Below, in pieces: positions 40,708 through 64,000 of a DNA stretch of 64,000 nt. The stretch is from assembly GCF_003369835.1 (NCBI RefSeq), contig NZ_QPMJ01000001.1:124001-188000 (forward strand). Direction: 5' to 3'. The stretch comes from Halorussus rarus (lineage in GTDB: Archaea; Halobacteriota; Halobacteria; Halobacteriales; Haladaptataceae). The notes beneath the pieces are model-generated. The model was not told the DNA's origin. It did not search any database and saw nothing but the letters and a program-made list of their open reading frames with translations. A program made the position numbers and the translations under genes. The stretch's first letter is position 1; the number at the start of each line of letters is the position of its first letter.

Positions 40708-40730
40708 ACTAACTATGCCCAAGGCATAAC
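40704..40730 (-). promoter_or_regulatory. Inverted GCATA repeats spanning the start of the solute-binding protein gene
   Basis: GGCATA-ctaac-TATGCC (40704-40720) is a 6-bp inverted repeat covering the ATG. A third GGCATAAC follows at about 40722-40729, next to the TATA box. GCATAGTTAG, present here on the minus strand, recurs at 3736-3745 before the sulfur exporter operon. Confidence 0.45.
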
Positions 40731-40943: not shown

Positions 40944-41135
40944 ATGACAGGCGACGATCCGTTCCGGACCGACAGCGGCATCGAACCCGCCGACACCGAG
41001 GCGTTCGGCCTCGCGCGGGACTGGTGGAGCGACGGCGAGAGCAGGACCACCGCGGCGCTCGGCGGCGGACCGAGTACCGATGCCGCTCCGTCTCACCGCG
41101 CTCCGATGACCCGAAGGGGGACCGATTCCCGATGA
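40944..41135 (+). pseudogene. Truncated cobalamin adenosyltransferase (CobA/CobO) remnant
   Basis: A 63-residue ORF immediately before cbiP. Residues about 17-40, [20 protein letters not shown], align with the conserved start of haloarchaeal CobA/CobO (FGLVQxWWGDGKGKTTAALG). The Walker A glycine-lysine residues are changed (SDGESRTT instead of GDGKGKTT), and after AALG the family resemblance stops. The remaining 150 or so residues are missing and neither other frame continues them. I infer a decayed gene whose 3' part was deleted. It overlaps cbiP by 4 nt, so it may still couple translation. Confidence 0.6.
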
Positions 41136-43657: not shown

Positions 43658-44437
43658 TCAAACGTCGGGCGTCTCCATGATGCGGGGGACGCCCGCCGCG
43701 GTGATGGTCTCGCCGACGAGGTACGAGGCGGCGTCGCTGGCGAGGAACTGCGCGATGTCGGCGATCTCCTCGGAGGTGCCGATCCGGCGCTCGACGTCGC
43801 CGCGGTCGATGTTGTCGGCGCTGACGCCCATCTGGCTCTCGACGCCGGGCGTGGCGACGAACCCGGGCGCGATGCAGTTGACGCGGACGTCATCGCTCGC
43901 CCATTCGAACGCCAGCGTCGACGTGAGGTTGATGACGCCGGCCTTGGCCGCGCCGTAGTGGCTCATGTGGGGCGAGCCCTTCTGGCCCGCGACGCTGGCG
44001 AGGTTGATGACCGCGCCGCCGCCGTCCTCTCGCATGCGCTCGCCCGCGACCTGGGTGCAGTGGAAGGTGCCGTGGAGGTTGATGTCCACGATGGTCTCCC
44101 AGCCGTTCTCGCTGATGTCCGCGAACGGCGCCATGAAGCTCGCGCCGGCGTTGTTGACCAGCACGTCGACGCCGCCGAACTCCTCGACGGTCGCGTCGAC
44201 CAGCGCCTCGACCGCGTCGCGGTCGGTCACGTCGCACTCGACGGCGAGCGCCGACCCCTCGCGGTCGCTGTCGGCGATGCCCTCGGCGACCGGTTCGACG
44301 TTCTCCTGCTCGCGCGAGCAGACCACGACGTCGGCGCCGTCGTCGGCGAACCGCTCGGCGATGGTCCGCCCGATGCCGCTCGACGCGCCCGTTACGATGG
44401 CCGTTTGCCCGTCGACGCCGAACTGCTCGGTCGTCAC
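43658..44437 (-). CDS. Short-chain dehydrogenase/reductase (FabG-like)
   Basis: A 259-residue classical SDR with a GTG start. TAIVTGASSGIG is the cofactor-binding motif, VLVNNAGAS the NNAG motif, and the catalytic tetrad is visible as Asn, NLASVAGQ (Ser), YGAAK (Tyr, Lys). APGFVATP and LVGETITAAG follow. The basic residue at CSREQENV suggests NADP(H) or mixed preference. Divergent from the acyl-CoA ligase at 44578 across 140 nt, so likely co-regulated. It probably acts on 3-hydroxy or 3-oxo acyl-CoA. Confidence 0.88.
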   Translation of the reverse strand: MTTEQFGVDGQTAIVTGASSGIGRTIAERFADDGADVVVCSREQENVEPVAEGIADSDREGSALAVECDVTDRDAVEALVDATVEEFGGVDVLVNNAGASFMAPFADISENGWETIVDINLHGTFHCTQVAGERMREDGGGAVINLASVAGQKGSPHMSHYGAAKAGVINLTSTLAFEWASDDVRVNCIAPGFVATPGVESQMGVSADNIDRGDVERRIGTSEEIADIAQFLASDAASYLVGETITAAGVPRIMETPDV

Positions 44438-44577: not shown

Positions 44578-46143
44578 ATGGACAAGTCCGCGTTCACCGA
44601 GGGCGCACGGTCGGGCAACGTCGCGCGCCTCCACGACGAGACGGCCGAGCGCCACGCCGAGGACCTGGCGCTTGAGATGCGAGGGTCGGAACTCACCCAC
44701 GGAGGGCTCCGGGACCGCTCGGCGCGATTCGCGGGCGGACTGCGCGACCTCGGAGTCGACGTCGGCGACCGGGTGCTGCTGTACCTGCCGAACTGTCCGG
44801 AGTACGTCGTCGCCGCGCTCGGGACACTGAAGGCGGGCGCCGTGGCGTCGCCGATGAACCCCCAGTACAAGGCCCGGGAGATCGGCCACCAGCTCGACGA
44901 CACCGAAGCGTCGGTCGTCGTCACCCACGCCGCGCTCCGGGACCACCTCGCCGAGGCCCTCCGGGAGACCGACCGGAGTCCGGCGGTCGTCACGGTGGGC
45001 CCCTCGGACGACCTCCCCGAAGGCGACGTCGCCTTCGCGACCGTTGACGGTGAAGCAATCACGGTCGACAGAGAGAGCGAGGACGTCGCGCTCCAGCCGT
45101 ACACCAGCGGGACGACCGGCCAGCCCAAGGGCGTGCTGCTCACCCACCGCAACCTCCGTGCCCAGGCGTTCTCGGGGTTCGAACTGGTCGACGTCGACCC
45201 CGGCGAGGACCGGAGCCTCGCGGTCCTGCCGCTGTACCACATCACGGGGTTCGTCCACTCGACGTGGCAGACGCTGGTCCGGGGCGGCGCGGTGTACGTC
45301 CGCAACCCCGCCGAGTGGGACGCCGAGGACGCGATGCGGACCATCGAGGCGGAGGGCATCACGGGGTTCATCGGCGTCGCGGCGATGTACGTCGACCTCG
45401 TCAACCACGAGGCGTTCGGCGAGTACGACCTGTCGAGCCTCCGGGAGACCGGCCAGGGCGGCGCGAAGATGCCCGTCGCGGTCCAGCGGGAGTTCGAGTC
45501 GGTCGCCGGCGTCGACGCCTGGGAGGGGTACGGCCTCACCGAGACCACCGCGGCGACCCACACCGGCGCGGGGACGACCTTCGGCCACCGACTGGGGACC
45601 ATCGGCCAACCGCTGCGGATGACCGACGCCAAGGTCGTCGACGAGTCGGGCGCGGAGGTCCCGCCGGGTGAGGAGGGCGAACTCCTGGTCCGGGGCCCGC
45701 AGGTGATGAAGGGGTACCACGATCTGCCCGAGGCGAACGACGCGGCGTTCACCGAGGCGGGATACTTCCGGACCGGCGACGTCGCGCGGCGCGACCCGGA
45801 CAACTACTACGAGATCATCGACCGGAAGAAGCACATGATCAACACCGCGGGGTACAACGTCTACCCGAGCGAGGTCGAGGAACTGCTCTTCGAGCACGAG
45901 GGGGTCGCCGACGCCGCGGTGGTCGGGGTCCCCGACGACCGCCGGGGCGAGACAGTGAAGGCGTTCATCGTGCCTGCTCCGGACGCCGAGGTGACGCCCG
46001 AGGAGCTCAAACAGTTCTGCCTCGACAACCTCGCGGAGTACAAGCACCCCCGAGAGGTCGAGTTCGTCGAGGAACTCCCCCGGACCGCGAGCGGGAAGGT
46101 CCAGAAGTTCAAGCTGGTCGAGGGCGAGGAGGACGAGAGCTGA
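44578..46143 (+). CDS. Long-chain-type acyl-CoA synthetase (AMP-forming ligase)
   Basis: A 521-residue class I adenylate-forming enzyme. A3 motif YTSGTTGQPKGVLLTHRN, A5 EGYGLTETTAATH, A7/A8 YFRTGDVARRDPDNYYEIIDRKKHMI and A10 PRTASGKVQKF are all intact. It makes CoA esters from a carboxylic acid, ATP and CoA. The stop lies 2 nt from the HAD gene start, so both are one transcript. With the ACAD10/11-like dehydrogenase and the APH kinase next door it is the obvious activating enzyme. The substrate is unknown. Confidence 0.9.
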   Translation: MDKSAFTEGARSGNVARLHDETAERHAEDLALEMRGSELTHGGLRDRSARFAGGLRDLGVDVGDRVLLYLPNCPEYVVAALGTLKAGAVASPMNPQYKAREIGHQLDDTEASVVVTHAALRDHLAEALRETDRSPAVVTVGPSDDLPEGDVAFATVDGEAITVDRESEDVALQPYTSGTTGQPKGVLLTHRNLRAQAFSGFELVDVDPGEDRSLAVLPLYHITGFVHSTWQTLVRGGAVYVRNPAEWDAEDAMRTIEAEGITGFIGVAAMYVDLVNHEAFGEYDLSSLRETGQGGAKMPVAVQREFESVAGVDAWEGYGLTETTAATHTGAGTTFGHRLGTIGQPLRMTDAKVVDESGAEVPPGEEGELLVRGPQVMKGYHDLPEANDAAFTEAGYFRTGDVARRDPDNYYEIIDRKKHMINTAGYNVYPSEVEELLFEHEGVADAAVVGVPDDRRGETVKAFIVPAPDAEVTPEELKQFCLDNLAEYKHPREVEFVEELPRTASGKVQKFKLVEGEEDES

Positions 46144-46145
46144 CC

Positions 46146-46910
46146 GTGCCGGGCGGCGAACCCGAATCCGACTACCGGGCGGTGTTCTGGGACATCGGCG
46201 GCGTCGTCCTCGACCCGGACTCGGTCCGCGAGGCCCACGAGGCGTTCGTCCGGCGCGTGGTCGCGGAGCACGCGTCCGATACGTCGGTCGGGGAGGAGAT
46301 CGAGACGGCCGACGCCATCGAGACGTGGCGGACCGCGGTCGGCGAGTACTTCCGGGCGCGCGACGGGACGGAGTTCCGATCGGCCCGGCGCGGCTACCAC
46401 CGGGCGGTCGCCGAAGTCGTCGGCGAGGAGATTCCCGAGGACGAGTGGCGGCCCCTCTTCGAGGCGGCGACTGCGGGGACGCTCCGCCCCGAACCCGACG
46501 CGGCCGAGACCGTCGAGCGGCTCGCCGAGACCGACCTCCACGTCGGCGTCGTCAGCGACGTCGACACCGAGGAGGGCCTGCGCATCCTGGAAGAGTTCGG
46601 CGTGCGGGACCGGTTCGACTCGATAACCACCTCCGAGATGGTCGGTCGGACCAAGCCCGACCGCCGGATGTTCGAGACTGCCTTGGAGGAGGCCGGACTG
46701 TCACCCGACGCCGCCCCGGAGTCGGTCATGATCGGCGACCGGTACGACCACGACATGGCCGGCGCGAAGGAGTTGGGACTGACGACCGTCGCGTACGGCG
46801 CCGAAGACGGGCCTGCGGTCGATTACGAGGTCGAGAATCTGCGAGAGGTGCTGGCCGTCGTCGGCGTAGCTGACCGGGACGATTCTACCGTCGAGAATCG
46901 AGAGAATTGA
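46146..46910 (+). CDS. HAD-superfamily protein, ACAD10 N-domain-like
   Basis: A 254-residue HAD hydrolase with a GTG start 2 nt behind the ligase. Motif I is VFWDIGGVVLD (Asp near 16), motif II VVSDVDT, motif III GRTKPDRRMFE and motif IV MIGDRYDHDM. The D-x-G-G-V-V form of motif I, without the second Asp, is also seen in the HAD domain of ACAD10 and in soluble epoxide hydrolase relatives. The 3' end faces the ACAD gene with only 3 nt between. Whether it hydrolyses a phosphate or is structural is unknown. Confidence 0.85.
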   Translation: MPGGEPESDYRAVFWDIGGVVLDPDSVREAHEAFVRRVVAEHASDTSVGEEIETADAIETWRTAVGEYFRARDGTEFRSARRGYHRAVAEVVGEEIPEDEWRPLFEAATAGTLRPEPDAAETVERLAETDLHVGVVSDVDTEEGLRILEEFGVRDRFDSITTSEMVGRTKPDRRMFETALEEAGLSPDAAPESVMIGDRYDHDMAGAKELGLTTVAYGAEDGPAVDYEVENLREVLAVVGVADRDDSTVENREN

Positions 46911-46913
46911 GAC

Positions 46914-48131
46914 CTACCCGTCGTCGAACCGGAGCAGGTGCTCGACCTCGCTCCGGTCGGTGTCCTCGAAGGCGTTGCGCGCGATGACGCGCTTGTGGAC
47001 CTCGTCGGCGCCGTCGATGATGCGGAACTGCCGGACGTTCTCGTAGAAGTCCGCCAGCGGCAGGTCCTTCCCGATGCCGTTGCCGCCGCAGATCTGGACC
47101 GCGGTGTCGATGGCGTTCTGCGCGACGTTCGCGGCGAACGTCTTGCTCATCGCCACCTCGATGCGGGCCTCCTCGCCGGCGGCGATCTGGCGGGCGGCGT
47201 GCCGGACCATCGTCCGGACCGCGTGGAGCCGGGTCTCGGCCTCGGCGACCTCGAACCGGAGCGCCTGCTTGTCCGACAGCGTCCCGTCGAACGCCCGGCG
47301 CTCCTCGGCGTAGGCCTTCGCCACGTCGAGCGCGCGCTCGGCCATCCCGGAGAAGCGCATGCAGTGGGTCAGGCGGGCCGGGCCGAGGCGCCGCTGGGCG
47401 ATGGCGAACCCGGCGTTCTCCTCGCCGAGCAGGTTCTCCTCGGGCACCCGGACGTTCTCGTACCTGATCTCGGCGTGGCTCCCGCCGGTGAGGCCGCCGC
47501 CGAGGTGCGGGATGTCGCGCTGGATCTCGACGCCGGGGGTGTCGGCGGGCACGAGAAAGATCGAACAGCCCTGGTAGGGGTGGGCGTCCTGGTCGGTCCG
47601 GGCCATCACCAGCAGCACGTCGGCCTCGCTGCCCTGCGTGGTCCACCACTTGTGGCCGTCGATGACCCACTCGTCACCGTCCTTCTCCGCGGTCGTCCGG
47701 ATCATCTTCGGGTCCGACCCCGCGCCGGGCATCGGCTCGGTCATCGAGAACCCCGACCGGACCTCGCCCTCGACCAGCGGGCGGAGCCACTCGTCCTTCT
47801 GCTCGTCGGTGCCGACTATCTCGAGCGTGTGCATGTTGCCCTCGTCGGGCGCGTCGACGCGGATGGCCGCGGGCCCGAGCAGGCTCCGGCCGGCTTCCTC
47901 GAAGACGGGCAGGACCTCGCGGAAGTCCATCCCCATCCCGCCGTACTCCTCGGGTATCTGGGGCGCGTACACGTCGCGCTCTCTCGCTGCCTCGCGGAGG
48001 TCCGCCAGGACCTCCGACGGGACCGGTCCTGCGCCGAGGTACTCGCGCTCGACGGGCACCACCTCCTCGCGGACGAAGGTCCGGGCGCGCTCGGCGACCT
48101 CCTGGCCGCTCGCCGGGTCGTCGTACTCCAT
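46914..48131 (-). CDS. ACAD10/ACAD11-like acyl-CoA dehydrogenase
   Basis: A 405-residue flavoprotein of the acyl-CoA dehydrogenase fold. FSMTEPMPGAGSDP binds FAD and substrate, then GHKWWTTQGSEADVLLVMA, and RRLGPARLTHCMRFSGMAE (about 248-266), a block typical of the ACAD10/11 branch. ICGGNGIGKDLP and DGADEVHKRVIAR complete the C-terminal domain. In mammals this branch works with a fused APH kinase to remove a 4-phospho group from 4-phosphoryl acyl-CoA. GCTTTTACATCG (minus strand, about 48157-48168) gives a leaderless mRNA. Divergent from the APH gene. Confidence 0.87.
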   Translation of the reverse strand: MEYDDPASGQEVAERARTFVREEVVPVEREYLGAGPVPSEVLADLREAARERDVYAPQIPEEYGGMGMDFREVLPVFEEAGRSLLGPAAIRVDAPDEGNMHTLEIVGTDEQKDEWLRPLVEGEVRSGFSMTEPMPGAGSDPKMIRTTAEKDGDEWVIDGHKWWTTQGSEADVLLVMARTDQDAHPYQGCSIFLVPADTPGVEIQRDIPHLGGGLTGGSHAEIRYENVRVPEENLLGEENAGFAIAQRRLGPARLTHCMRFSGMAERALDVAKAYAEERRAFDGTLSDKQALRFEVAEAETRLHAVRTMVRHAARQIAAGEEARIEVAMSKTFAANVAQNAIDTAVQICGGNGIGKDLPLADFYENVRQFRIIDGADEVHKRVIARNAFEDTDRSEVEHLLRFDDG

Positions 48132-48297
48132 ACCTGCTACCTCTTCGCAACGATGTAAAAGCATTTCCCCGATTCCGTTACCCTCGTAAGTTCTATACCG
48201 GAGTTGTCCGTACAATCGACGCGAACGACCGGGCCGAGCGAACGCCCGCGCGGCGGGCCGCCGGCCCAGCAACCGCACGACGCGGTGGGACGAACCT

Positions 48298-49410
48298 ATG
48301 ACAGGAAGCGACGACGCCACGACCGAAGCCGGACGCGACGCGGCCGCCGACGAGAGTGACTACTTCGAGCGACTCGTCGACCGCGACGCGCTCCGGGAGT
48401 ACCTGACCGACCGACTCGGCGACGCCGGGGAGTTCGCCGTCAGCCACCACGGCGAGGGCCACTCCAACGAGACGCTGTTCGTGACGTGGGGCGACCGGGA
48501 ACTGGTCGTCCGACGGCCGCCGCCGGGCGAGACCGCCGACACCGCCCACGACGTGCTCCGGGAGTACCGCGTGATGGACGCGCTCCAGGACACCGACGTC
48601 CCGGTGCCGACGACCGTGCTGGCCTGCGAGAACCACGACGTCCTCGGCAGTGACTTCTACGTGATGGACCGGGTCGCGGGCGACGTGCTCCGGGACGCCG
48701 AGCCCGACCGCTTCGGGACGGCCGGAGCCCGACAGCGCGTCGGCGAGGAGCTGGTCGACACCCTCGCAGCCGTCCACGGGGTCGATTACGAGGACGTCGG
48801 TCTGGGCGAGTTCGGCCACCCGCCGGGCTACACCGAGCGCCAGGTCGAGCGCTGGACCAAGCAGCTCGAGTGGGCGTTCGAGCGCACCGCCGACGAGCGC
48901 ACGGTGCCGGAACTCCGGAAGGTCGGCGACTGGCTCGCCGAGCACTGCCCGACCGACCACGAGCACGCGCTGGTCCACGGCGACTACAAGCTCGACAACG
49001 TCATGTTCGCGCCGGGGACGCCCCCGGAGCTGGCCGCGGTGTTCGACTGGGAGATGGCGACGCTGGGCGATCCGCTGGCCGACCTGGGCTGGATGCTGTC
49101 GTACTGGCGCGACCCCGGCGACCCCGACCCCGCCTCGCCCGAGCTCGAAGCGACGTTCATGGAGGCGGAGGGCTACCCGACTCGGCGGGAACTGGTCGAC
49201 CGGTACGAGGCGGCCACCGGTATCGAGTACGAGCGCGACCGGTTCTACCGCTCGCTGGCGGTGTACAAGCTGGCCGCGCTCGGCGAGATGTTCTACCGGC
49301 GCTACCTCGAGGGCAACAGCGACGACCCGATGTACCCGGTGATGGAGCACCGGGTGCCCGACCTGGCCGCGCGCGCGAAGCGCATCATCGACGGCGACGA
49401 ACCGCTGTGA
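48298..49410 (+). CDS. APH-family phosphotransferase (ACAD10/11 kinase-domain-like)
   Basis: A 370-residue kinase-fold protein. An acidic N-tail precedes the nucleotide lobe (GEGHSNETLFVTWGDRELVVRRPP). The catalytic Brenner-type motif is ALVHGDYKLDN (about 224-234; Asp 229 general base, Asn 234), and the metal-binding Asp is in VFDWEMATLGDPLADLGW (Asp 250). The HGDYKLDN, WEMATLGDP and RRPP blocks are typical of ACAD10/11 kinase domains rather than antibiotic kinases. Divergent from the ACAD gene and followed by an SDR. Confidence 0.86.
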   Translation: MTGSDDATTEAGRDAAADESDYFERLVDRDALREYLTDRLGDAGEFAVSHHGEGHSNETLFVTWGDRELVVRRPPPGETADTAHDVLREYRVMDALQDTDVPVPTTVLACENHDVLGSDFYVMDRVAGDVLRDAEPDRFGTAGARQRVGEELVDTLAAVHGVDYEDVGLGEFGHPPGYTERQVERWTKQLEWAFERTADERTVPELRKVGDWLAEHCPTDHEHALVHGDYKLDNVMFAPGTPPELAAVFDWEMATLGDPLADLGWMLSYWRDPGDPDPASPELEATFMEAEGYPTRRELVDRYEAATGIEYERDRFYRSLAVYKLAALGEMFYRRYLEGNSDDPMYPVMEHRVPDLAARAKRIIDGDEPL

Positions 49411-49563: not shown

Positions 49564-49689
49564 CAGGCGTTGCGCGACCGGGCGGCCCCTTTCAGTCCCA
49601 CCCTCGGTTGTCTGTGTAGCCTGCCAACACTCCCTCGAACACCCCCGCGCGACCCAATCGTTTTGCCGCCGTGCGCCGACACTCGACCC

Positions 49690-50460
49690 ATGACAGACCT
49701 CGACGCCTTCGACCTCTCCGGCACCGTCGCCGTGGTCACCGGCGGCACCCGCGGCATCGGCCGCGCCGTCGCTCGCGGGTTCGCCGACGCCGGGGCCGAC
49801 GTGGTCCCCACGTCCCGAACCGAGGAGACGGTCGAGGACGCCGTCGCGGACGTGCGCGACCGCGGGGCGTCGTCGCTGGTCGCGCCGACCGACGTGACCG
49901 ACGAGGCCGCGGTCCGGGACCTGTTCGACCGGGTCGACGACGAACTCGGCGGGGTCGACGCGGTGGTGAACAACGCGGGCATCAACCCCGACGCCGCGCT
50001 CGGCCCGCCCGAGGACGTCGACAGCGAGGCGTTCGAGTTCACGACCGACGTGAACCTCGGCGGCGCGTTCCACTGCGCGCGGGCCGCGGCCGAGTCCCTC
50101 GCGGAGCGCGGCGGGACCGTCGTCAACGTCGCCAGCGTCGGCGGTCTGGTGGGCCTGCCGCGCCAGCACCCCTACGTCGCCTCGAAGCACGGGCTGGTCG
50201 GCCTCACCAAGAGCATGGCGCTCGACTGGGCGCCCGACGTCCGGGTCAACGCCCTTGCGCCGGGGTACGTCCGGACCGACCTCACCGAGGAACTGCAGGA
50301 GAACGAGCGCCTCCGGAAGTCCATCGTCGACCGGACCCCGCTGGCCCGGTTCGCCGACCCCGAGGAGATAGCCGGCCCCGCGGTCTTCCTGGCCAGCGAC
50401 GCCGCCTCGTACGTCACCGGCGAGTGTCTCGCGGTCGACGGCGGGTGGACGGCGCGTTGA
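49690..50460 (+). CDS. Short-chain dehydrogenase/reductase (FabG-like)
   Basis: A 256-residue classical SDR. TVAVVTGGTRGIG is the coenzyme motif, VVNNAGINPD the NNAG motif and NVASVGGLVGLPRQHPYVASKHGLVG holds Ser, Tyr and Lys of the active site. C-terminal ALAPGYVRTDLTEEL and YVTGECLAVDGG are intact. It begins 279 nt after the APH gene and is probably expressed separately. A role on a 3-hydroxyacyl-CoA formed after the ACAD step is reasonable but inferred. Confidence 0.88.
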   Translation: MTDLDAFDLSGTVAVVTGGTRGIGRAVARGFADAGADVVPTSRTEETVEDAVADVRDRGASSLVAPTDVTDEAAVRDLFDRVDDELGGVDAVVNNAGINPDAALGPPEDVDSEAFEFTTDVNLGGAFHCARAAAESLAERGGTVVNVASVGGLVGLPRQHPYVASKHGLVGLTKSMALDWAPDVRVNALAPGYVRTDLTEELQENERLRKSIVDRTPLARFADPEEIAGPAVFLASDAASYVTGECLAVDGGWTAR

Positions 50461-50546
50461 ACCGGGTTCCGCCGGGACACGCCCCGAGAACGACCGGCGA
50501 CGGGGAATCAAAATCGTCATGACCGCCCGGTCTCTTGGAGTGGGTA

Positions 50547-55184: not shown

Positions 55185-55901
55185 TCAGTCCGACTCGGCG
55201 ACCGACACCGAGAGGTACTCCTCGAGCAGGTCCTCGCGCTCGCGGAGCTCCGGGACGCTGCCCTCCCAGACGTTCGACCCCTTCTCGATGATGTAGGCCC
55301 GCTCGGCCAGGTCGAGCGCGAACTGGACGTTCTGCTCGGTCAGCAGGACGGTGACGTCCCGCTCGACGATGTCCGCGAACACCCGGCGGAGATCGTCGAC
55401 GATGACCGGCGCGAGCCCCTCGGTCGGCTCGTCCAACAGCAGCAGGTCGGGGTTCTGGACCAGGGCCCGCCCGACCGACAGCATCTGCTGCTCGCCGCCC
55501 GAGAGGTCCCGACCGCGGCTGTCCCGGAGGTCGTCGAGCGTCGGGAACACGTCGTACATCTCCTCGACGTCCCGGGGGTCCTCGGCGGTCTCGGCCGCGA
55601 CCCGGAGGTTCTCCTCGACGGTCAGCGTCGGGAAGATGCGGCGGTCCTCGGGGACGAGCTTGATACCCATCCGGCTGATGCGGTTGACCGGGGTCGTCAC
55701 GATGTCGGTGTCCCGGTATCGGATGATCCCCTCGCGGCGGGGGACGGTGCCGACGATGCTCCGGAGCGTGGTGGTCTTGCCCGCGCCGTTCCGGCCGAGC
55801 AGCACCACCACCTCGTTCTCCTCGACCTCGAGCGAGAGGTCGAAGACGACGTGGCTGTTGCCGTAGTAGACGTTCACGTCGGCCATCTCCAGCAGCGCCA
55901 T
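55185..55901 (-). CDS. livF: Branched-chain-type ABC transporter ATPase LivF
   Basis: A 238-residue ATPase. Walker A is LLGRNGAGKTTTLRSI, Q-loop KLVPEDRRIFPTL, signature DLSGGEQQMLSVGRAL and Walker B LLLLDEPTEGLAP, all standard for LivF. The ATG at 55901 overlaps the livG stop (TGATG). It works with LivG beneath the LivH/LivM permeases at the membrane. Substrate class: branched-chain amino acids, amides, urea or carboxylates. Gene context favours a carboxylate here. Confidence 0.93.
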   Translation of the reverse strand: MALLEMADVNVYYGNSHVVFDLSLEVEENEVVVLLGRNGAGKTTTLRSIVGTVPRREGIIRYRDTDIVTTPVNRISRMGIKLVPEDRRIFPTLTVEENLRVAAETAEDPRDVEEMYDVFPTLDDLRDSRGRDLSGGEQQMLSVGRALVQNPDLLLLDEPTEGLAPVIVDDLRRVFADIVERDVTVLLTEQNVQFALDLAERAYIIEKGSNVWEGSVPELREREDLLEEYLSVSVAESD

Positions 55902-56842
55902 CACTCCTCACCTCCCAGGTAGGCCTCCCGGACGCGCTCGTCGGCCATCACCTCGTCGGGGGTGCCGTCGGCGATGAGCCGTCCGCCGTCGAACACCAGG
56001 ATGCGGTCGGAGATGCCCAGCACCACCTCCATGTCGTGCTCGGTGATGAGGAACGTCGTGTCGGTGCGCTCGTCGAGATCGCCGATGAGGTCGACCATCC
56101 GCCGGGTCTCTGTCGCGTTCATCCCGGCGGTCGGTTCGTCGAGCAGCACGACCGACGGGTCGGTTCCCAGCGCCAGCGCGATCTCGACCTTCCTGACGTC
56201 GCCGTGCGAGAGGTTCGCGCACTTCGTCTCGGCCACCCCCGTCAGGTTCGTCAGTTCGAGCACGCGCCGGGCCTCGGCGTTGAGGTCGTCGTCGGTGGCC
56301 GCGACCGACGTGAAGTCGAGCGTCCGGCCCTCCCGGCTGATGCGCGCGATGCGGACGTTCTCCAGCACGGTCAGCCGCTCGAACACGTTGTTTATCTGGA
56401 AGGCCCGGGCGAGGCCGAGCCGGTTTATCTCGTAGGGCTCCATCCCGGTCACGTCGACCAGTCCGTCGTCCCCGGTTTCCTCGGAACCGGTCGGGGCTCC
56501 CGCGTCGTCGGGCCCGGCCGAGGGTCCCGTCTCGTCGTCGCTCCCGCCGCCCGCCGCGGTGCCGCCGTCGGTGGCGGCGTCGCCGCCGGTCGAGCTGCCG
56601 CCGTCCGTCGCGGTCCCGCCGTCGCCGACGGCCTCCCCCTCGCGGCGGGGCCGGATGGCGACTCGCCCCGCCGAGGGCTCCAGTTGGCCCGCCAGCAGGT
56701 TGTAGAAGGTGGTCTTGCCCGCGCCGTTCGGGCCGATGATGCTGGTGATGTCGGCGTCGTCTATCGCGACGCTCACGTCGTCGACCGCGACCAGCGCGCC
56801 GAACCGCCGGGTCAGGCCGTCGGTCCGCAGGACGGTCGTCAC
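55901..56842 (-). CDS. livG: Branched-chain-type ABC transporter ATPase LivG with Gly/Asp-rich insertion
   Basis: A 313-residue ATPase, about 55-60 longer than usual. Walker A is IIGPNGAGKTTFYNLLAG, then after GRVAIRPRREGE a low-complexity stretch of Gly, Thr, Asp and Ser (about residues 68-125) precedes DVTGMEPYEINRLGLARAFQINNVF (Q-loop). Signature NLSHGDVRKVEIALAL and Walker B VVLLDEPTAGMN are intact. The insertion lies in a surface-loop position. It overlaps livH by 4 nt. Confidence 0.92.
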   Translation of the reverse strand: MTTVLRTDGLTRRFGALVAVDDVSVAIDDADITSIIGPNGAGKTTFYNLLAGQLEPSAGRVAIRPRREGEAVGDGGTATDGGSSTGGDAATDGGTAAGGGSDDETGPSAGPDDAGAPTGSEETGDDGLVDVTGMEPYEINRLGLARAFQINNVFERLTVLENVRIARISREGRTLDFTSVAATDDDLNAEARRVLELTNLTGVAETKCANLSHGDVRKVEIALALGTDPSVVLLDEPTAGMNATETRRMVDLIGDLDERTDTTFLITEHDMEVVLGISDRILVFDGGRLIADGTPDEVMADERVREAYLGGEE

Positions 56843-57753
56843 GTCGCTCCCTCCTCGCCGCCGAACAGCCCCTGGGGCTTGAGCACGAGCACGGCGATCA
56901 TCGCCAGGAACGGCAGCAGCTGGCCCGCCCCGGAGATGACGATGCTGCCGACCGCGATGAGCAGGCCGATGACGTACGCGCCGACGAACGCGCCCGTGAA
57001 CGAGCCGAGCCCGCCGATGACGACCACGACGAACGCGTTGATGATGACCTGGTTGCCCATCGCCGGGCTGACCGCCCCGACCGGCGCGGCGAGCGCGCCG
57101 CCGAGGCCGGCGAGGAGGGCGCCGACGAAGAACACGCCGGTGTAGAGCCGCGAGACGTCGATGCCCAGCAGTCGGGCCATGTCGCGGTCGCTCGCGGTCG
57201 CCCGGACCAGCCGACCGATGTTGGTGAACCGGAGTACCGCGAACAGCGCCCCGAGCACGACCAGCGACATCACCACGAGGAACGCCCGGTAGGTCGGCGC
57301 CGCCAGCGAGTCGGTGAACCGGACGGTGCCCTGGAGCCCGGCCGGCGGCGAGATGACGAACTGGCCGGTCCCGAAGGTGATGCGCGTGAGGTCGGTGAGT
57401 ATCAGCACGAACGCGAACGTCAGGAGCAACTGGTCTAGCACCTCCTCCTGACGGCCGTACAGCCGCCGGATGAAGCCCATCTCGATGAGCGCCCCGAGGA
57501 CGCCGACGACGACCAGGGCCGCGATCACGCCCGGCCAGAAACCGAGCCGCGGGAAGCTCACGCCGAACACGGTGAGGCCGTTGACCATCGTCACGGCCAC
57601 GTAGGCCCCGATCATGTACAGCGCGCCGTGTGCGAAGTTGAGCACGTCGAGCACGCCGAAGATGAGGCTCAGGCCGATGGCGACGAGGAACAGCTGGGCG
57701 CCGATGCTGAGGCCCGTTATCACCTGATCGGCGACCAGGCCGATGTCAACCAT
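56839..57753 (-). CDS. livH: Branched-chain-type ABC permease LivH
   Basis: A 304-residue permease with about eight membrane helices: GAQLFLVAIGLSLIFGVLDVLNFAHGALYMIGAYVA is the family N-terminal block, and AVSPAMGNQVIINAFVVVVIGGLGSFTGAF the C-terminal block. The ATG at 57753 has CGTTTAATCG about 27 nt upstream. First gene of livHGF, divergent from the binding-protein gene. Its usual partner LivM is encoded on the other strand at 59352. Confidence 0.93.
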   Translation of the reverse strand: MVDIGLVADQVITGLSIGAQLFLVAIGLSLIFGVLDVLNFAHGALYMIGAYVAVTMVNGLTVFGVSFPRLGFWPGVIAALVVVGVLGALIEMGFIRRLYGRQEEVLDQLLLTFAFVLILTDLTRITFGTGQFVISPPAGLQGTVRFTDSLAAPTYRAFLVVMSLVVLGALFAVLRFTNIGRLVRATASDRDMARLLGIDVSRLYTGVFFVGALLAGLGGALAAPVGAVSPAMGNQVIINAFVVVVIGGLGSFTGAFVGAYVIGLLIAVGSIVISGAGQLLPFLAMIAVLVLKPQGLFGGEEGAT

Positions 57754-57970
57754 ACGCACGACTCATCGAGAAAACGATTAAACGTTTCGCCGATTTCACC
57801 GGAGAATCGCAGGAAAACGCCGGAACAATTTCTATAAAATCAGGAAATGTGGATGTAATCCTGGACGGGAATAAAAGTAGCAAAAATTAGTGATAGAATC
57901 GAGACCGGTGACACCCCGTACTCAGGCGAAGGTATATGTTCGATTCTATCATCAAGGATTCGTGGGTTTC
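57754..57970. promoter_or_regulatory. Divergent liv promoter with perfect 12-bp inverted repeat
   Basis: TGATAGAATCGA (57891-57902) and TCGATTCTATCA (57940-57951) are exact reverse complements, 37 nt apart. A TATA-like GGTATATG (57931-57938) for the binding-protein gene sits directly before the second arm. On the other side GTTTAATCG serves livH. The position suggests looping or paired repressor binding that controls both halves of the transporter. Confidence 0.65.
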
Positions 57971-59320
57971 ATGACATCCGATAACAGTCCCCACGAAAAC
58001 GGGGACGGGGAAGCCGAATCGACGGGGTGGAATCGACGCGCCTTCCTCGGGACCGCCGGCGCGGCCGGCGCGACCGGGCTGGTGGGGCCGGTGGGGACCG
58101 TCACCGCACAGGACAACCCGATCCGGATCGGGGCGGTGTACCTGCTGTCGGGGCTGGGCCAGGCGCTGGGGGCGGCCTCGGTCGCGGCCGCCGAGCTCAC
58201 GGTCAAACGCATCAACGAGGCGGGCGGCATCCTCGACCGGGACGTCGAACTCGTCGTCCGGGACCACGAGAACAGCGCCGCGACCGCCAACCAGCACTTC
58301 CGGGACCTGGTCCAGCGCCAGAACGTGGCCGCGATGATCGGGCTGACCTCCTCGGGCGTGACGCTGTCGACCGCGCCCACGGTCGCCCAGTTGGGCGTCC
58401 CGCTCACGCTGACCGACATCGGGACGCCGTTCATCACCGAGCACGACGAGGACACGTACGGCGACAACGCCCAGGGGACCCGGGTCCACTTCCGGACCAA
58501 CGCGAACACCGCCATCAACACGTACGCGATGGCACGGTACGCCAACGAGAATCTGGACGTGACCCGGGTCGCCAACCTCGGACCGGACTACGCCTACGGC
58601 CAGCAGTGCTGGGAGTACTTCAAGGCGTTCTCGAACGCGATGGGCGCCGACTACGAGTACGTCGCCAGCCAGTTTCCCGAGGTGGGCGCCAGCAACATGA
58701 CCCCGCAGATAAACACGGTATCGAACGCGAACCCCGAACTGGTGTTCACCTCGTTCTGGGCCGGCGACGCGGTCACCTTCGTCCAGCAGGCGACCCAGCA
58801 GGGGCTGTTCGAGCAGGCCACCGACGTGTTCGACACGCTCGGCGCCGACCCGACGGTGTTCCAGGCGCTCGGAAACACCATGCCCGAGGGGGTCAGCTAC
58901 TCGTCGTGGTACTGGCACTCGACGTACGACAACGAAAACAACAACAGCTTCCTGGACGCCTGGAACCAGGAGTACCAGAACACCGACACCATCGGCGTCC
59001 CATCGTTCACCGGGCCGAGCGCGTGGTCGGCGCTCTGGATGTACAAGCGCGCGATGGAGAACGCCGGCAGCACCAACCCCGACGACGTCATCTCCCAGCT
59101 CGAGGGGATGCAGTACCAGGACGACCCGCGCGGGCCGATCAGCATCGACGCGAACTCCCACCAGGCCCAGGCCCCGACCATCATCGGGACCACCAGCAGC
59201 CAGGACGACGTCCCGTACGACGGGGTCGGACTCCAGCCCTCGGAGTCGATCAGCGTCGACCGCTCGACGCTCAGCGACATGCTGAGCCAGGCCGACACCA
59301 ACCTGCCGCCGGGCGTCTGA
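57971..59320 (+). CDS. Liv-type periplasmic-binding-fold substrate-binding protein
   Basis: A 449-residue exported protein. A Tat signal NRRAFLGTAGAAGATGLVG (about residues 21-39) is present, without a lipobox cysteine. The binding fold follows: PIRIGAVYLLSGLGQALG, NSAATANQHFRDLVQRQNVAAMIGLTSSGVTLSTAP, then an unusually aromatic/Asn-rich second lobe (SYSSWYWHSTYDNENNNSFLDAWNQEYQN). Such proteins serve HAAT transporters for amino acids, amides or aryl carboxylates. The substrate is not defined; its partner genes suggest a carboxylic acid. Confidence 0.9.
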   Translation: MTSDNSPHENGDGEAESTGWNRRAFLGTAGAAGATGLVGPVGTVTAQDNPIRIGAVYLLSGLGQALGAASVAAAELTVKRINEAGGILDRDVELVVRDHENSAATANQHFRDLVQRQNVAAMIGLTSSGVTLSTAPTVAQLGVPLTLTDIGTPFITEHDEDTYGDNAQGTRVHFRTNANTAINTYAMARYANENLDVTRVANLGPDYAYGQQCWEYFKAFSNAMGADYEYVASQFPEVGASNMTPQINTVSNANPELVFTSFWAGDAVTFVQQATQQGLFEQATDVFDTLGADPTVFQALGNTMPEGVSYSSWYWHSTYDNENNNSFLDAWNQEYQNTDTIGVPSFTGPSAWSALWMYKRAMENAGSTNPDDVISQLEGMQYQDDPRGPISIDANSHQAQAPTIIGTTSSQDDVPYDGVGLQPSESISVDRSTLSDMLSQADTNLPPGV

Positions 59321-59351
59321 GCCGGGGCGGCTCTCCAGTTCCTACCTTCAC

Positions 59352-60515
59352 ATGAGCTACACAGACACGGTACGCGAGCGCGTCCGGGACGGCGACCTGG
59401 CTGTCGTCGTCGCCGGCGTCGTCGTCCTCGCCCTGCTCGCGGGTGCGCCGCTGTACCTCGGGCCGGTCGAGACGTCGCTGCTCATCACGGTGCTGCTAGT
59501 CGCCATCTTCGGCACCGCGTTCAACCTGCTGTACGGCTACACCGGCCTGCTGTCGTTCGGCCACGCGATGTTCCTCGCGGTCGCCGCCTACGCGACCGCC
59601 AAGGTGTTCAACGTCGTCGGCCCCCTGCTGGGCCTCGAGGAGCTGTTCGGCGGCGCCAGCGTCCTTGCGACGTTCGCGCTCGCCGTCCTGGTGGGCGTCG
59701 GGTTCGCGACGCTGCTCGCGGTGCCCATCGGCTACCTCAGCGTCCAGCTCGAGGAGATCTACTTCGCGATGATCACGCTGTCGTTCAGCATGGCGGTGTT
59801 CGTGATGCTGCTCCAGGACATCACCGGCCAGCTCGCCGACCTCCTCGGCCTCGGCGAGACCGCCACCGAGCTGCTGGTCACCAACGGCGACGACGGGCTC
59901 ATCGTCTCCTACCAGGCGATGGGCGAGGTCGACCTGTTCGGGTGGGCGTTCACGTTCATGAACATCTCCGACTACCTCGCGTTCTACTTCGTCGTCCTGT
60001 CGGCGTTCGTCGGCTCGATGTACGCGCTCTGGCGGGTCGTCCGGTCGCCGTTCGGCCGGGTCTGCCTGGCCATCCGGGAGAACCCCGAGCGCGCCCGGTC
60101 GCTGGGCATCGACGTGACGCGCCACTCGTGGGCGACGTTCGTGGTCAGCGCGGCGTTCACCGGGCTGGTCGGCACGATGTGGGCGCCCCTCCAGAGCAGC
60201 GTCGTCCCGGGCATCGGCCACTGGACGTTCTCGGCCACGCCCGTGCTCGTGACCGTCATCGGCGGGCCGTACTCGTTCCTCGGCCCGACGGTGGGGTCGT
60301 TCGTCTACGAGTACATCCGGTTCACCATCGACCAGTACCCGGCGCTGGCGGCCCGGTGGCAGCTCGTGTTCGGCGTCATCCTGCTGTCGGTCGTGATGTT
60401 CTTCGAGAACGGCGTCACCGGCGGCATCCGGAGCCTGTGGGAGCGGGCGCGCGGCGAACTCTCGTCGGGCGACGCCGCGCCCGCCGAGGGCCGGGGCGAC
60501 CGGGAGCAGGGGTGA
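59352..60515 (+). CDS. livM: Branched-chain-type ABC permease LivM
   Basis: A 387-residue permease with about nine helices. FGTAFNLLYGYTGLLSFGHAMFLAVAAYATA is the standard first block, LSVQLEEIYFAMITLSFSMAVF the second, and SPFGRVCLAIRENPERARSLGID the coupling loop near residue 235. It follows the binding-protein gene by 31 nt and precedes an acyl-CoA ligase by 18 nt (ATG start), so uptake and CoA activation are encoded in one unit. Confidence 0.93.
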   Translation: MSYTDTVRERVRDGDLAVVVAGVVVLALLAGAPLYLGPVETSLLITVLLVAIFGTAFNLLYGYTGLLSFGHAMFLAVAAYATAKVFNVVGPLLGLEELFGGASVLATFALAVLVGVGFATLLAVPIGYLSVQLEEIYFAMITLSFSMAVFVMLLQDITGQLADLLGLGETATELLVTNGDDGLIVSYQAMGEVDLFGWAFTFMNISDYLAFYFVVLSAFVGSMYALWRVVRSPFGRVCLAIRENPERARSLGIDVTRHSWATFVVSAAFTGLVGTMWAPLQSSVVPGIGHWTFSATPVLVTVIGGPYSFLGPTVGSFVYEYIRFTIDQYPALAARWQLVFGVILLSVVMFFENGVTGGIRSLWERARGELSSGDAAPAEGRGDREQG

Positions 60516-60533
60516 CCCGCCGTGGCGACGGAG

Positions 60534-62201
60534 ATGACTATCCGCCCGTTCCTGTGGCGGGCCGCCAACCTGTTTCCCGGCACCGAGGTCGTCGCCCGGA
60601 CCCGCGACGGCGTCCACCGCTACGCCTACGCCGACGTCGACGACCGGGTCCGGTCGCTGGCTTCCGGCCTGGCCCACCTCGGCGTCGAGTCGGGCGACCG
60701 GGTGGGAACCTTCGGCTGGAACCACCACCGCCACTTCGAGGCGTACTACGCCGCGCCGCTGATGGGCGCGCAGTTACACACCATCAACGTCCAGTTGAGC
60801 GACGACCACGTCGAGTACATCGTGAACGACGCCGGCGACGACGTGCTGCTGGTCGACCCCGGCGACCCCTTCGAGACGGTCGAGCGCCTCTGGGACCGGT
60901 TCGAGACCGTCGAGACGGTGGTCGTGATGGGGACGGCGGACGACCTTCCCGACGACACGGACCTCCCGGCCCACGCCTTCGAGGACCTGATCGCCGACGG
61001 CTCGGCCGACTTCGACTGGCCCGATCTCGCGGGCGACCAGCCCGCCGGCATGTGCTACACCTCCGGAACCACGGGGAAGCCGAAGGGCGTCGAGTACACC
61101 CAGGAGATGATATACGCCCACTCCCTGATGGTGACGACCCCGGCGGCCATCGGCATCGAGGAGTCCGACGTGGTGCTGCCGGTCGTCCCGATGTTCCACG
61201 TCAACTCCTGGGAGTTCCCGTACGCAGCCACGATGGTCGGGGCCAAGCAGGTGTATCCGGGGCCGAGCCCGGACGCGGCCGACCTCGTCGACCTCGTCGA
61301 GTCGGAGGGCGTCACCCTCACCGCCGGGGTGCCGACGGTCTGGATAGACGTGCTGGACTACCTCGAGGACCACGACGCCGATATCTCCTCGCTCGAGCGC
61401 ATCGTCGTGGGCGGGAGCGCCGCGCCGGAGGGCGTGATGCGCCGGTACGAGGACGAGCACGGCGTGACCATCGACCACGCCTGGGGGATGACCGAGACGA
61501 TGAGCATCGGCAGCGTCTCTCGTCCGAAGGCGGGGATGGCCGACTGGGACCGCGAGGCCCGGTTCGCCAAGCGCGCCAAGCAGGGGCTGCTCTCGCCCGG
61601 CCTGGAGATGAAAATCGTGGACGATGACGGCGAGGAACTCCCCTGGGATAGCGCGGAGCGAAGCTCCGCGGACCATTCGAGCGGGCAGGGCCCGCGAGAA
61701 GACGGGGAAGCGGTCGGCGAACTGTACGTCCGCGGTCCCACGGTCGTCACCGAGTACTACAACCGGCCCGAAGCAAACCAGGAGGAGTTCGAGGGGGACT
61801 GGCTCAAGACCGGTGACATCGCCAGCATCGACGAGGACGGCTACATCGAGGTCGTGGACCGCGCGAAGGACGTTGTCAAGAGCGGCGGCGAGTGGATATC
61901 GACCATCGAACTCGAGAACGCGCTGATGGCCCACGAGGACGTGGTCGAGGCGGCGGTCATCGCGGTGCCCCACGAGCGGTGGCGCGAGCGACCCCTGGCC
62001 TGCGCGGTGGTCCGGGAGGGCGCCGACCTCTCGGCCGAGGACCTGCTGGCCTTCCTCGACGGGGAGTTCCCGGACTGGTGGCTTCCGGACGACGTCGCCT
62101 TCGTCGAGGAGGTCCCCCGGACCGCGACCGGCAAGTTCGACAAGAAGGTGCTGCGCGACCGGTTCGCCGACCCCGATCTCCGGTTCACACCCGGAGAGTA
62201 A
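60534..62201 (+). CDS. Acyl-CoA synthetase (AMP-forming), co-encoded with LivM
   Basis: A 555-residue adenylate-forming ligase: CYTSGTTGKPKGVEYTQE (A3), HAWGMTETMSIGSVS (A5), LKTGDIASIDEDGYIEVVDRAKDVVKSGGEW (A7-A9) and PRTATGKFDKKVLRD with the catalytic lysine. Residues about 374-391 (SAERSSADHSSGQGPRED) are a polar extra segment encoded by two hairpins at 61652-61695. A GTG at 60522 is an alternative start. Related to AlkK-type medium-chain ligases. It probably activates the acid imported by the Liv transporter. Confidence 0.9.
   Translation: MTIRPFLWRAANLFPGTEVVARTRDGVHRYAYADVDDRVRSLASGLAHLGVESGDRVGTFGWNHHRHFEAYYAAPLMGAQLHTINVQLSDDHVEYIVNDAGDDVLLVDPGDPFETVERLWDRFETVETVVVMGTADDLPDDTDLPAHAFEDLIADGSADFDWPDLAGDQPAGMCYTSGTTGKPKGVEYTQEMIYAHSLMVTTPAAIGIEESDVVLPVVPMFHVNSWEFPYAATMVGAKQVYPGPSPDAADLVDLVESEGVTLTAGVPTVWIDVLDYLEDHDADISSLERIVVGGSAAPEGVMRRYEDEHGVTIDHAWGMTETMSIGSVSRPKAGMADWDREARFAKRAKQGLLSPGLEMKIVDDDGEELPWDSAERSSADHSSGQGPREDGEAVGELYVRGPTVVTEYYNRPEANQEEFEGDWLKTGDIASIDEDGYIEVVDRAKDVVKSGGEWISTIELENALMAHEDVVEAAVIAVPHERWRERPLACAVVREGADLSAEDLLAFLDGEFPDWWLPDDVAFVEEVPRTATGKFDKKVLRDRFADPDLRFTPGE
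61652..61695. repeat. Double-hairpin insertion inside the acyl-CoA ligase gene
   Basis: CGCGGAGC-GAA-GCTCCGCG (61652-61670) is a perfect 8-bp hairpin and GCGGGC-agg-GCCCGC (61681-61695) a 6-bp one, 10 nt apart. They encode a polar Ser/Asp/Arg-rich loop in frame between two conserved adenylation motifs. GAA loop and 8-bp stem match the element at 5660-5678. Confidence 0.55.
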
Positions 62202-62344: not shown

Positions 62345-64000
62345 ATGACACGTCCTGACATCCGACGAGTGACGGTGCTCGGCGCGGGCAACATGGGCCA
62401 CGGCATCACCGAGGTCGCCGCGATGGCGGGCTACGACGTCACGATGCGCGACATCGAGGAGGACCTCGTCGAAGACGGCTACGACGACATCGAGTGGAGC
62501 CTCGAGAAACTGGCCGAGAAGGACCGCCTCGACGAGCCGGTCGAGGAGATCCTCGGGCGCATCGACACCGCGACCGACCTCGAGGCGGCGGTGTCGGACG
62601 CCGACCTCGTCGTCGAGGCGGCCCCCGAGCAGATGGACCTCAAGAAGGACATCTTCGGCGACCTCGACGAGTTCGCGCCCGACGATGCGATTCTGGCGTC
62701 GAACACCTCCAGCCTGAGCATCACCGAGATGGCGACCGCGACCTCGCGGCCCGAGGACGTGGTCGGGATGCACTTCTTCAACCCGCCGGTGAAGATGGAC
62801 CTCGTGGAGGTCATCTACGGCGAGGAGACCGACGACGACACCGCCGAGACCGCCTACGAGTTCGTGGAGTCGCTGGGCAAGACCCCTATCTACGTCCGGA
62901 AGGACGTCAACGGGTTCGTGGTCAACACGGTGCTCGGGCCGTTCACCGACGAGTCCGCGTGGATGGTCTCGAACGGCGAAGCCACCGTCCGGGAGGTCGA
63001 CGCCGCGATGGTCCACCAGCGCGGGTACCCGATGGGGCCCTTCGAGCTCGCCGACCTGACCGGCATCGACGTGGGCTACCACGTCCGGAAGGAGGCCGGT
63101 CGGCCGATTCCACCCATCACCGAGGAGAAGGTCGAGAACGACGAGCTCGGCCGGAAGACCGGCAAGGGGTTCTACGACTACGAGGACGGTGAGGGCGTGA
63201 ACTACGAACCGGGCGACGGCGAGGGCTTCGACACGCTGCGCGTCGAGGCCCGGATGATCAACGAGGCCGCCCGACTCGTCGGCGACGACGTGGCGACCCC
63301 CGAGGAGGTCGACACCGGGGTCAAGCTCGGGCTGGGCTTCCCGGAGGGCATCTGCCGGCGCGCGGACAAAATCGGGCTCGACACCGTCCTCGACAAACTC
63401 CGGACCCTCCGCGAGGAGACCGGCGAGGACCGGTTCGCGCCCGACGACTACCTGGTCGAACTCGTCGAGTCGGGCCGGACCGGCGAGGAGGCGGGCGCTG
63501 GCTTCCACGAGTACGGCGGCGCGGGCGACGGCCCCGGCGACTACCGGTTGCTGAACTACGAACTGTCGGACGACGGGCTCCTCGAAATCGAACTCGACCG
63601 GCCCGAGCGCATGAACGCGCTGTCGACCGATTTGCTGGACGAAATCGACGACCTGCTGTCGTCGGCCGACGTCGACGAGGTCCGGTGCGTCACCTTCGAG
63701 GGCGCGGGCGATCGGGCGTTCAGCGCCGGCGCCGACATCGGCGGATTCGCCGACGTCGACCCCACCGACGCGATGGACGTCACGCCCGCGTTCGAGACGG
63801 TCAACGACTTCGAGCGTCCGGTCGTCGCGAAGGTCGACGGCTACTGTCTGGGTGCGGGGCTGGAGCTTGCGCTCGCCTGCGACCTCCGCATCGCGACCGA
63901 GGGGAGCGAGTTCGGCTCGCCCGAGATCGGCCTGGGGCTCATCCCCGGCGGCGGCGGCACCCAGCGCCTGCTCCGCCTGCTCGGCGAGACCCGCGCGAAG
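62345..64000 (+). CDS. 3-hydroxyacyl-CoA dehydrogenase / enoyl-CoA hydratase fusion, 3' end outside window
   Basis: The frame is open to the last base; 552 codons are visible. Residues 1-390 are an HCDH: Rossmann motif VTVLGAGNMGHGITEVAAMAG, SNTSSLSITEMA with HFFNPPVKMDLVEVI, then the helical C-terminal domain (RGYPMGPFELADLTG, GFPEGICRRADK). From about 405 a crotonase domain starts (LEIELDRPERMNALS, FSAGADIGGF, CLGAGLELALACDLR). The HCDH-ECH order is the reverse of bacterial FadB and is typical of archaea. It catalyses hydration and oxidation in beta-oxidation. CTATTTTACAG at about 62279 is the possible TATA box. Confidence 0.92.
   Translation, partial: MTRPDIRRVTVLGAGNMGHGITEVAAMAGYDVTMRDIEEDLVEDGYDDIEWSLEKLAEKDRLDEPVEEILGRIDTATDLEAAVSDADLVVEAAPEQMDLKKDIFGDLDEFAPDDAILASNTSSLSITEMATATSRPEDVVGMHFFNPPVKMDLVEVIYGEETDDDTAETAYEFVESLGKTPIYVRKDVNGFVVNTVLGPFTDESAWMVSNGEATVREVDAAMVHQRGYPMGPFELADLTGIDVGYHVRKEAGRPIPPITEEKVENDELGRKTGKGFYDYEDGEGVNYEPGDGEGFDTLRVEARMINEAARLVGDDVATPEEVDTGVKLGLGFPEGICRRADKIGLDTVLDKLRTLREETGEDRFAPDDYLVELVESGRTGEEAGAGFHEYGGAGDGPGDYRLLNYELSDDGLLEIELDRPERMNALSTDLLDEIDDLLSSADVDEVRCVTFEGAGDRAFSAGADIGGFADVDPTDAMDVTPAFETVNDFERPVVAKVDGYCLGAGLELALACDLRIATEGSEFGSPEIGLGLIPGGGGTQRLLRLLGETRAK

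Follow-up and report, generated by a model that had tools for sequence, protein, structure and literature searches.

A predicted haloarchaeal module for the degradation of 4-hydroxy acids in Halorussus rarus

Genes at the locus

We analysed a stretch of 64,000 nucleotides from the haloarchaeon Halorussus rarus (positions 124,001 to 188,000 of contig NZ_QPMJ01000001.1; hereafter the window), in which three adjacent genes encode a HAD protein, an acyl-CoA dehydrogenase (ACAD) and an APH-fold kinase. A sequence-only reading had previously named these families and predicted from them a degradation system for 4-hydroxy acids, a prediction that we find well supported as far as sequence evidence reaches. 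Pfam matches agree with all three families (Table 1), and the motifs that had been quoted are present, namely DIGGVV in HAD, the RRLGPARLTHCMRFSG block in ACAD and HGDYKLDN in the kinase. The surrounding genes are also as described: an acyl-CoA ligase ends 2 nt before the HAD gene (the junction reads TGA, CC, GTG), and a short-chain dehydrogenase (SDR) is found on either side of the trio (SDR1 and SDR2).

We rejected the arrangement of HAD, ACAD and kinase as one operon, because ACAD lies on the minus strand, opposite to the other two, and the three genes are thus not collinear. HAD and ACAD are convergent with ends 3 nt apart, and ACAD and the kinase are divergent across a gap of 166 bp. The ligase and HAD are probably cotranscribed, and SDR1 diverges from the ligase on the opposite strand.

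Active-site residues and phylogeny of ACAD and kinase

The mechanism in which a kinase phosphorylates a 4-hydroxyacyl-CoA and an ACAD then eliminates the phosphate has been established for LvaA/LvaC of Pseudomonas putida and for mammalian ACAD10/11 (PMC12440821, PMC11342911). In mouse ACAD11, the residues R626, H634 and R637 (HCMR plus an upstream Arg) recognise the phosphate of 4-phosphoacyl-CoA and D753 is catalytic, whereas R631 is common to ACADs (PMC12440821). We observed that the window ACAD carries an R-x4-R-x2-H-x2-R block with HCMR that aligns with mouse R626/R631/H634/R637, and a catalytic Asp (IIDGADEVH) that aligns with D753. Each of the 54 haloarchaeal orthologues sampled has both the R/H/R block and the Asp. 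We also took from the same genome the eight ACADs that rank next after the window protein; the block is absent from all eight of these paralogues and from human MCAD. In place of the Asp, MCAD has Glu, and so do the six paralogues in which the catalytic residue could be read.

In a tree of 85 rows (LG+C20+PMSF), ACAD11, its bacterial relatives and the haloarchaeal proteins are united against ordinary ACADs with a support of 100/100, and the window ACAD lies inside this superclade. The earlier assignment to the ACAD10/11 branch thus stands at the level of the superclade and its key residues. A closer tie to the animal proteins does not stand, since the haloarchaeal ACADs form a separate deep clade (100/100) that is sister to a bacterial group (94/89) and not to ACAD11. 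The best bacterial identity of the window ACAD is 48% (Dictyobacter vulcani).

The kinase belongs to the same APH family as the kinase of ACAD11. It matches the ACAD11 kinase domain (8v3v) at 1e-48, and the bacterial structures 9o56 and 3dxp match more strongly. Residues D229, N234 and R181, which correspond to mouse D220, N225 and the CoA-contacting R176, are invariant in 57 of 57 haloarchaeal kinases, as is the pair R88-E89 of helix alphaC; the published R86 is not placeable unambiguously. The haloarchaeal kinases form a clade (89/89), and the ACAD11 kinase is found in the same family across a weak fork (deeper forks 44/97).

Co-occurrence and linkage in Halobacteria

We compared the presence of the genes across 242 Halobacteria genomes, counting ACAD matches with an E-value of at most 1e-75 and kinase matches set off from the rest by a clear gap in E-value. 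Kinase and ACAD are present in the same 124 genomes and both absent from the other 118 (Fisher 3e-72, ignoring relatedness). Seven genera (g1, g5, g7, g13, g17, g20 and g48) are mixed for the pair, and in these the kinase and ACAD are gained or lost jointly. HAD occurs in 87 genomes, all among the 124 that bear the pair. The association of the genes is therefore beyond chance, since kinase and ACAD are concordant in 242 of 242 genomes and HAD is found only with the pair. In a sample of the phylum, every match of orthologue strength belonged to a genome that is also in the Halobacteria sample.

The adjacency of the genes is also conserved, with the linkage of kinase and ACAD kept across nine haloarchaeal families: the two lie within 5 kb of each other in 73 of 119 genomes, and in 55 genomes of 24 genera they are divergent within 500 bp. 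In 56 of its 87 genomes, HAD lies no more than 5 kb from the kinase or ACAD, and when near the kinase it is always on the kinase strand. The three genes all fall within 5 kb in 20 genomes, which represent five families, and no fused HAD/kinase/ACAD reading frame was seen in the haloarchaeal loci.

Other genes of the locus recur less widely. A close clade of the ligase (at least 58% identity) is restricted to 46 of the 124 genomes with the pair, and adjoins HAD on the same strand in seven genomes of three families. SDR2 occurs in 80 of the 124 genomes and in six others, and in 34 genomes its orthologue has the same strand as ACAD and lies at most 5 kb away from it. The family of the 3-hydroxyacyl-CoA dehydrogenase/enoyl-CoA hydratase (3HCDH-ECH) fusion was found in at least 22 sampled loci, and related ATP-binding cassette (ABC) ATPases with a ligase beside kinase/ACAD in at least four loci of other families (L063, L098, L114 and L129). 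These last two counts are lower bounds, as the neighbour map comes from a simple gene caller in which shadow frames displace some genes, the window kinase among them.

A gene for a metallo-beta-lactamase-fold hydrolase (cluster c11) also recurs beside HAD and an SDR (L068 5000-6000, L131, L133, L108, L089 and L080). It would fit a lactonase for the lactones of 4-hydroxy acids.

Haloferax mediterranei and levulinate

On plasmid pHME132 of Haloferax mediterranei ATCC 33500, the genes for 3HCDH-ECH, kinase, ACAD, HAD and SDR stand in a row, with identities to the window proteins of 84%, 82%, 83%, 66% and 86% (the last to SDR1). The SDR1 counterpart adjoins HAD there, and 3HCDH-ECH lies beside the kinase. 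We take strain DSM 1411 to be the same strain as ATCC 33500. Growth of DSM 1411 on levulinic acid is reported in a 2025 study, in passages that name no genes, with the highest rate of 0.097 per h at 0.6 g/L (PMC12455835). Levulinate is the substrate of the bacterial lva route (PMC12440821, PMC11342911). The link between the pHME132 block and this growth is suggestive.

A predicted pathway for 4-hydroxy acids

Besides the residues, phylogeny, co-occurrence and linkage that we observed, we propose a set of reactions, with an order of steps, a substrate range and a role for HAD, that we infer. The ligase would make the acyl-CoA, and if this bears a 4-keto group, an SDR would reduce it to the 4-hydroxy form. 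The APH-fold kinase would then phosphorylate the 4-hydroxyl of the acyl-CoA, and the atypical ACAD, with bound flavin adenine dinucleotide and the catalytic Asp, would expel the phosphate to yield a 2-enoyl-CoA, which the 3HCDH-ECH fusion would feed into beta-oxidation. HAD would be accessory and might either restrain the kinase or dephosphorylate stalled 4-phosphoacyl-CoA. The degradation system that had been predicted for 4-hydroxy acids thus stands as a route that the ligase, the SDRs and 3HCDH-ECH fit, with a substrate that we infer. We estimate a probability of about three in four that the locus is a haloarchaeal module that catabolises 4-hydroxy acids, and probably 4-keto acids such as levulinate as well.

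Several points weigh against this reading. The window ACAD is only 35% identical to mouse ACAD11, and we know of no assayed enzyme from the haloarchaeal ACAD/kinase clade or its bacterial sister group. ACAD and kinase are apart or on different contigs in 46 of the 119 genomes, and two relatives from the same genus as the window carry the pair without HAD. Furthermore, the growth of H. mediterranei on levulinate is no demonstration that this locus is the cause, and a different gamma-hydroxyacyl-CoA could be the substrate, such as a product of terpenoid or aromatic side chains.

The HAD protein

The canonical HAD phosphatase motif DxD is replaced in the haloarchaeal HAD: motif I reads D-x-G-G-V in 34 of 34 orthologues, with Gly in the position of the second Asp and an invariant nucleophile D16. 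Motifs II–IV are intact (S137-D, K170-P-D and G197DRYxHD), and the missing second Asp alone is no proof of inactivity. HAD might thus be an active phosphatase that clears stalled 4-phosphoacyl-CoA, as a repair enzyme or as the valve of a futile cycle. The intact motifs and D16 argue for this, as does the active Escherichia coli phosphatase YihX, which also lacks the second Asp. In addition, the pairing of kinase and phosphatase recurs, since a histidine phosphatase adjoins the kinase in some bacterial clusters (Thermus, Azospirillum and Marinobacter). However, the Gly is found in all 34 orthologues, and the HAD of ACAD10, with the same lack, shows negligible phosphatase activity on 4-phosphohydroxyhexanoyl-CoA (PMC11342911). 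We regard a phosphatase role as possible rather than probable.

HAD might instead act without catalysis and hold the kinase in check, the role reported for the HAD domain of ACAD10; this, too, is a tentative proposal. The second Asp is missing as in ACAD10, all 87 genomes with HAD carry the kinase, and in 55 of these HAD lies within 5 kb on the kinase strand. However, 37 of the 124 genomes with the pair lack HAD, which is therefore not essential to the pathway, and its best NCBIfam match is TIGR02253, not TIGR02247.

The TIGR02253 model is matched by 29 of 29 tested members with the best E-value of the list (window HAD, 90 bits), whereas the window HAD reaches 40 bits, at a cut-off of 125, with TIGR02247, presumably the subfamily of the HAD of ACAD10. 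The predicted structure, from an alignment that left out the plasmid-record row, has a predicted local distance difference test score of 92, and its nearest PDB fold is PH0459/BH32. The sequence-only reading had recognised in the three genes the domain set of ACAD10. HAD, kinase and ACAD are all present, but HAD fits best to TIGR02253/PH0459-like models. Common origin with the HAD of ACAD10 therefore seems unlikely in this comparison, which was made through subfamily models in place of ACAD10 sequences. The likeness to ACAD10 appears real in parts and would be a parallel, common descent of HAD not being demonstrated. Somewhat doubtful, finally, is a scenario in which haloarchaea evolved their own kinase/ACAD system and independently recruited a free-standing, catalytically altered HAD of another subfamily as a control of the kinase. 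Such a history would have arrived convergently at the HAD-kinase arrangement of animal ACAD10, with DUF6285 or histidine phosphatases serving as partners in some bacteria instead.

Alternative substrates and chance association

The same ACAD/kinase chemistry could act on a bulky gamma-hydroxyacyl-CoA (terpenoid, sterol-like or with an aromatic side chain) and not on levulinate or fatty 4-hydroxy acids. The bacterial relatives occur in many kinds of catabolic cluster, for instance with nitronate monooxygenase and enoyl-CoA hydratases close by in Rhodococcus rhodochrous, and with MaoC and SDRs in Deinococcus. Furthermore, the window holds a Liv-type transporter and several ligases, and several haloarchaeal genomes have two to four ACAD copies, which suggests different substrates. 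However, the set of ligase and SDR matches the lva pathway, and H. mediterranei, which has the same gene block, grows on levulinate. We consider a bulky natural substrate rather unlikely. In genomes G028, G144, G199 and G036, the two to four ACAD copies go along with up to six kinases; such multiple copies suggest substrate specialisation.

It is very improbable, and largely refuted already, that an ordinary fatty acyl-CoA dehydrogenase and an unrelated aminoglycoside-type phosphotransferase are neighbours by chance: generic annotation goes no further than this, but the catalytic Asp in place of Glu, the phosphate-binding R/H/R set, the placement in the superclade and the co-occurrence in 124 of 124 genomes all contradict it.

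Neighbouring genes in the window

The coordinates of the features are listed in Table 1. The Liv/HAAT-type transporter is complete and consists of two divergent blocks (LivF-LivG-LivH on the minus strand; binding protein and LivM on the plus strand), with AMP-forming ligases on both sides. SDR2 is followed by a PAS histidine kinase whose 4TM region is of the archaeal type (HisKA_4TM; 50535-52001), and then by a xylose-isomerase-like TIM-barrel protein; the histidine kinase could be a substrate sensor. Further upstream, an extracellular solute-binding protein of family 5 and a CobQ-like cobyric acid synthase (38995-40722 and 41024-42619) are apparently unrelated.

Table 1. Features of the locus, with positions in the window
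Feature	Position	Strand	Evidence
SDR1, short-chain dehydrogenase; candidate 4-ketoacyl-CoA reductase / 4-hydroxyacyl-CoA dehydrogenase	43658..44437	-	PF00106/PF13561
AMP-forming acyl-CoA ligase; putative LvaE-like role	44578..46143	+	PF00501+PF13193
HAD protein with cap, motif I D16-x-G18	46146..46910	+	PF00702, E 4e-21
LvaC/ACAD10/11-type ACAD; predicted 4-phosphoacyl-CoA to 2-enoyl-CoA (phosphate elimination)	46914..48131	-	PF00441/PF02770/PF02771, residues, tree
Divergent ACAD/kinase intergenic region	48132..48297	.	166-bp gap
APH-fold kinase; predicted 4-hydroxyacyl-CoA kinase	48298..49410	+	PF01636, E 5e-50
SDR2, second short-chain dehydrogenase	49687..50460	+	PF13561
Liv/HAAT-type ABC transporter; possible uptake system	55185..60515	.	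Sequence; Peripla_BP_6
LivF	55185..55904	-	
LivG	55901..56842	-	
LivH	56839..57759	-	
Transporter binding protein	57890..59320	+	
LivM	59352..60515	+	
Further AMP-forming acyl-CoA ligase	60522..62201	+	PF00501
3HCDH-ECH fusion	62345..64000, beyond window end	+	PF02737+PF00725+PF00378

Comparison with known systems

The module would be an archaeal branch of a pathway for which the bacterial enzymes were identified in 2017 and the mammalian ones in 2024-2025; the literature searched, with subscription journals mostly beyond the reach of the search, contained no account of such a branch. H. mediterranei is a tractable organism that has the genes and grows on levulinate, and the module is a candidate explanation for levulinate use by this bioplastic-producing archaeon. 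The locus also offers a natural, unfused parts list of ACAD10, with which the effect of a HAD without DxD on the kinase is approachable using three separate proteins.

The closest fold and sequence relatives of the haloarchaeal HAD are PH0459 (PDB 1x42), the engineered BH32 proteins and TIGR02253-type HADs, which share 27-29% identity with it and have no known link to a kinase. Mammalian ACAD11 (kinase-ACAD) and ACAD10 (HAD-kinase-ACAD) have the ACAD R/R/H/R set and Asp and the kinase D/N/R in common with the haloarchaeal proteins, and the HAD of ACAD10 likewise lacks the second Asp of DxD. In contrast to the mammalian proteins, the haloarchaeal genes are unfused, their ACADs form a separate clade and their HAD matches another subfamily model best. 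ACAD10/11 furthermore act in a peroxisomal/mitochondrial fatty acid context, whereas the haloarchaeal context would be catabolism.

In about 84 bacterial loci, the kinase usually adjoins ACAD. Searching these loci by hidden Markov model (HMM) and motif for HAD beside kinase/ACAD yielded none, save two weak ACAD neighbours (35-36 bits). Some contain DUF6285, and a few of these also a histidine phosphatase (Thermus, Azospirillum, Marinobacter); in L046 (9999-10999), L047 and L164 the kinase is followed by DUF6285 and histidine phosphatase. The kinases linked to DUF6285 are very divergent, with about 56-85 bits to the haloarchaeal HMM, and DUF6285 was found in 0 of 116 Halobacteria genomes, with Caulobacter and Thermus as positive controls. 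In Pseudomonas peradeniyensis (L155, 5537-10756), an operon of kinase, DUF6285, ACAD, SDR and ligase resembles lva, and from its gene order the small protein DUF6285 would correspond to LvaB. We rejected this operon as lva itself: its ACAD is 34% identical to ACAD11, as opposed to the 56% reported for LvaC, and it is thus a parallel, second lva-like operon.

Taken by its gene set, the lva pathway of P. putida (LvaA kinase, LvaB, LvaC ACAD, LvaD SDR and LvaE ligase) likewise has separate kinase and ACAD genes together with a ligase and an SDR, and its ACAD has the same active-site residues as the haloarchaeal one. The haloarchaeal system differs in being archaeal, in having its genes dispersed or divergent and not in one operon, and in having HAD instead of DUF6285. 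Furthermore, LvaC is reported to be 56-62% identical to ACAD10/11 (PMC11342911) whereas the window ACAD is only 35% identical to ACAD11, and the two thus belong to different deep branches. The bacterial lva pathway is nevertheless the closest model for the haloarchaeal module, and a better precedent than animal ACAD10/11.

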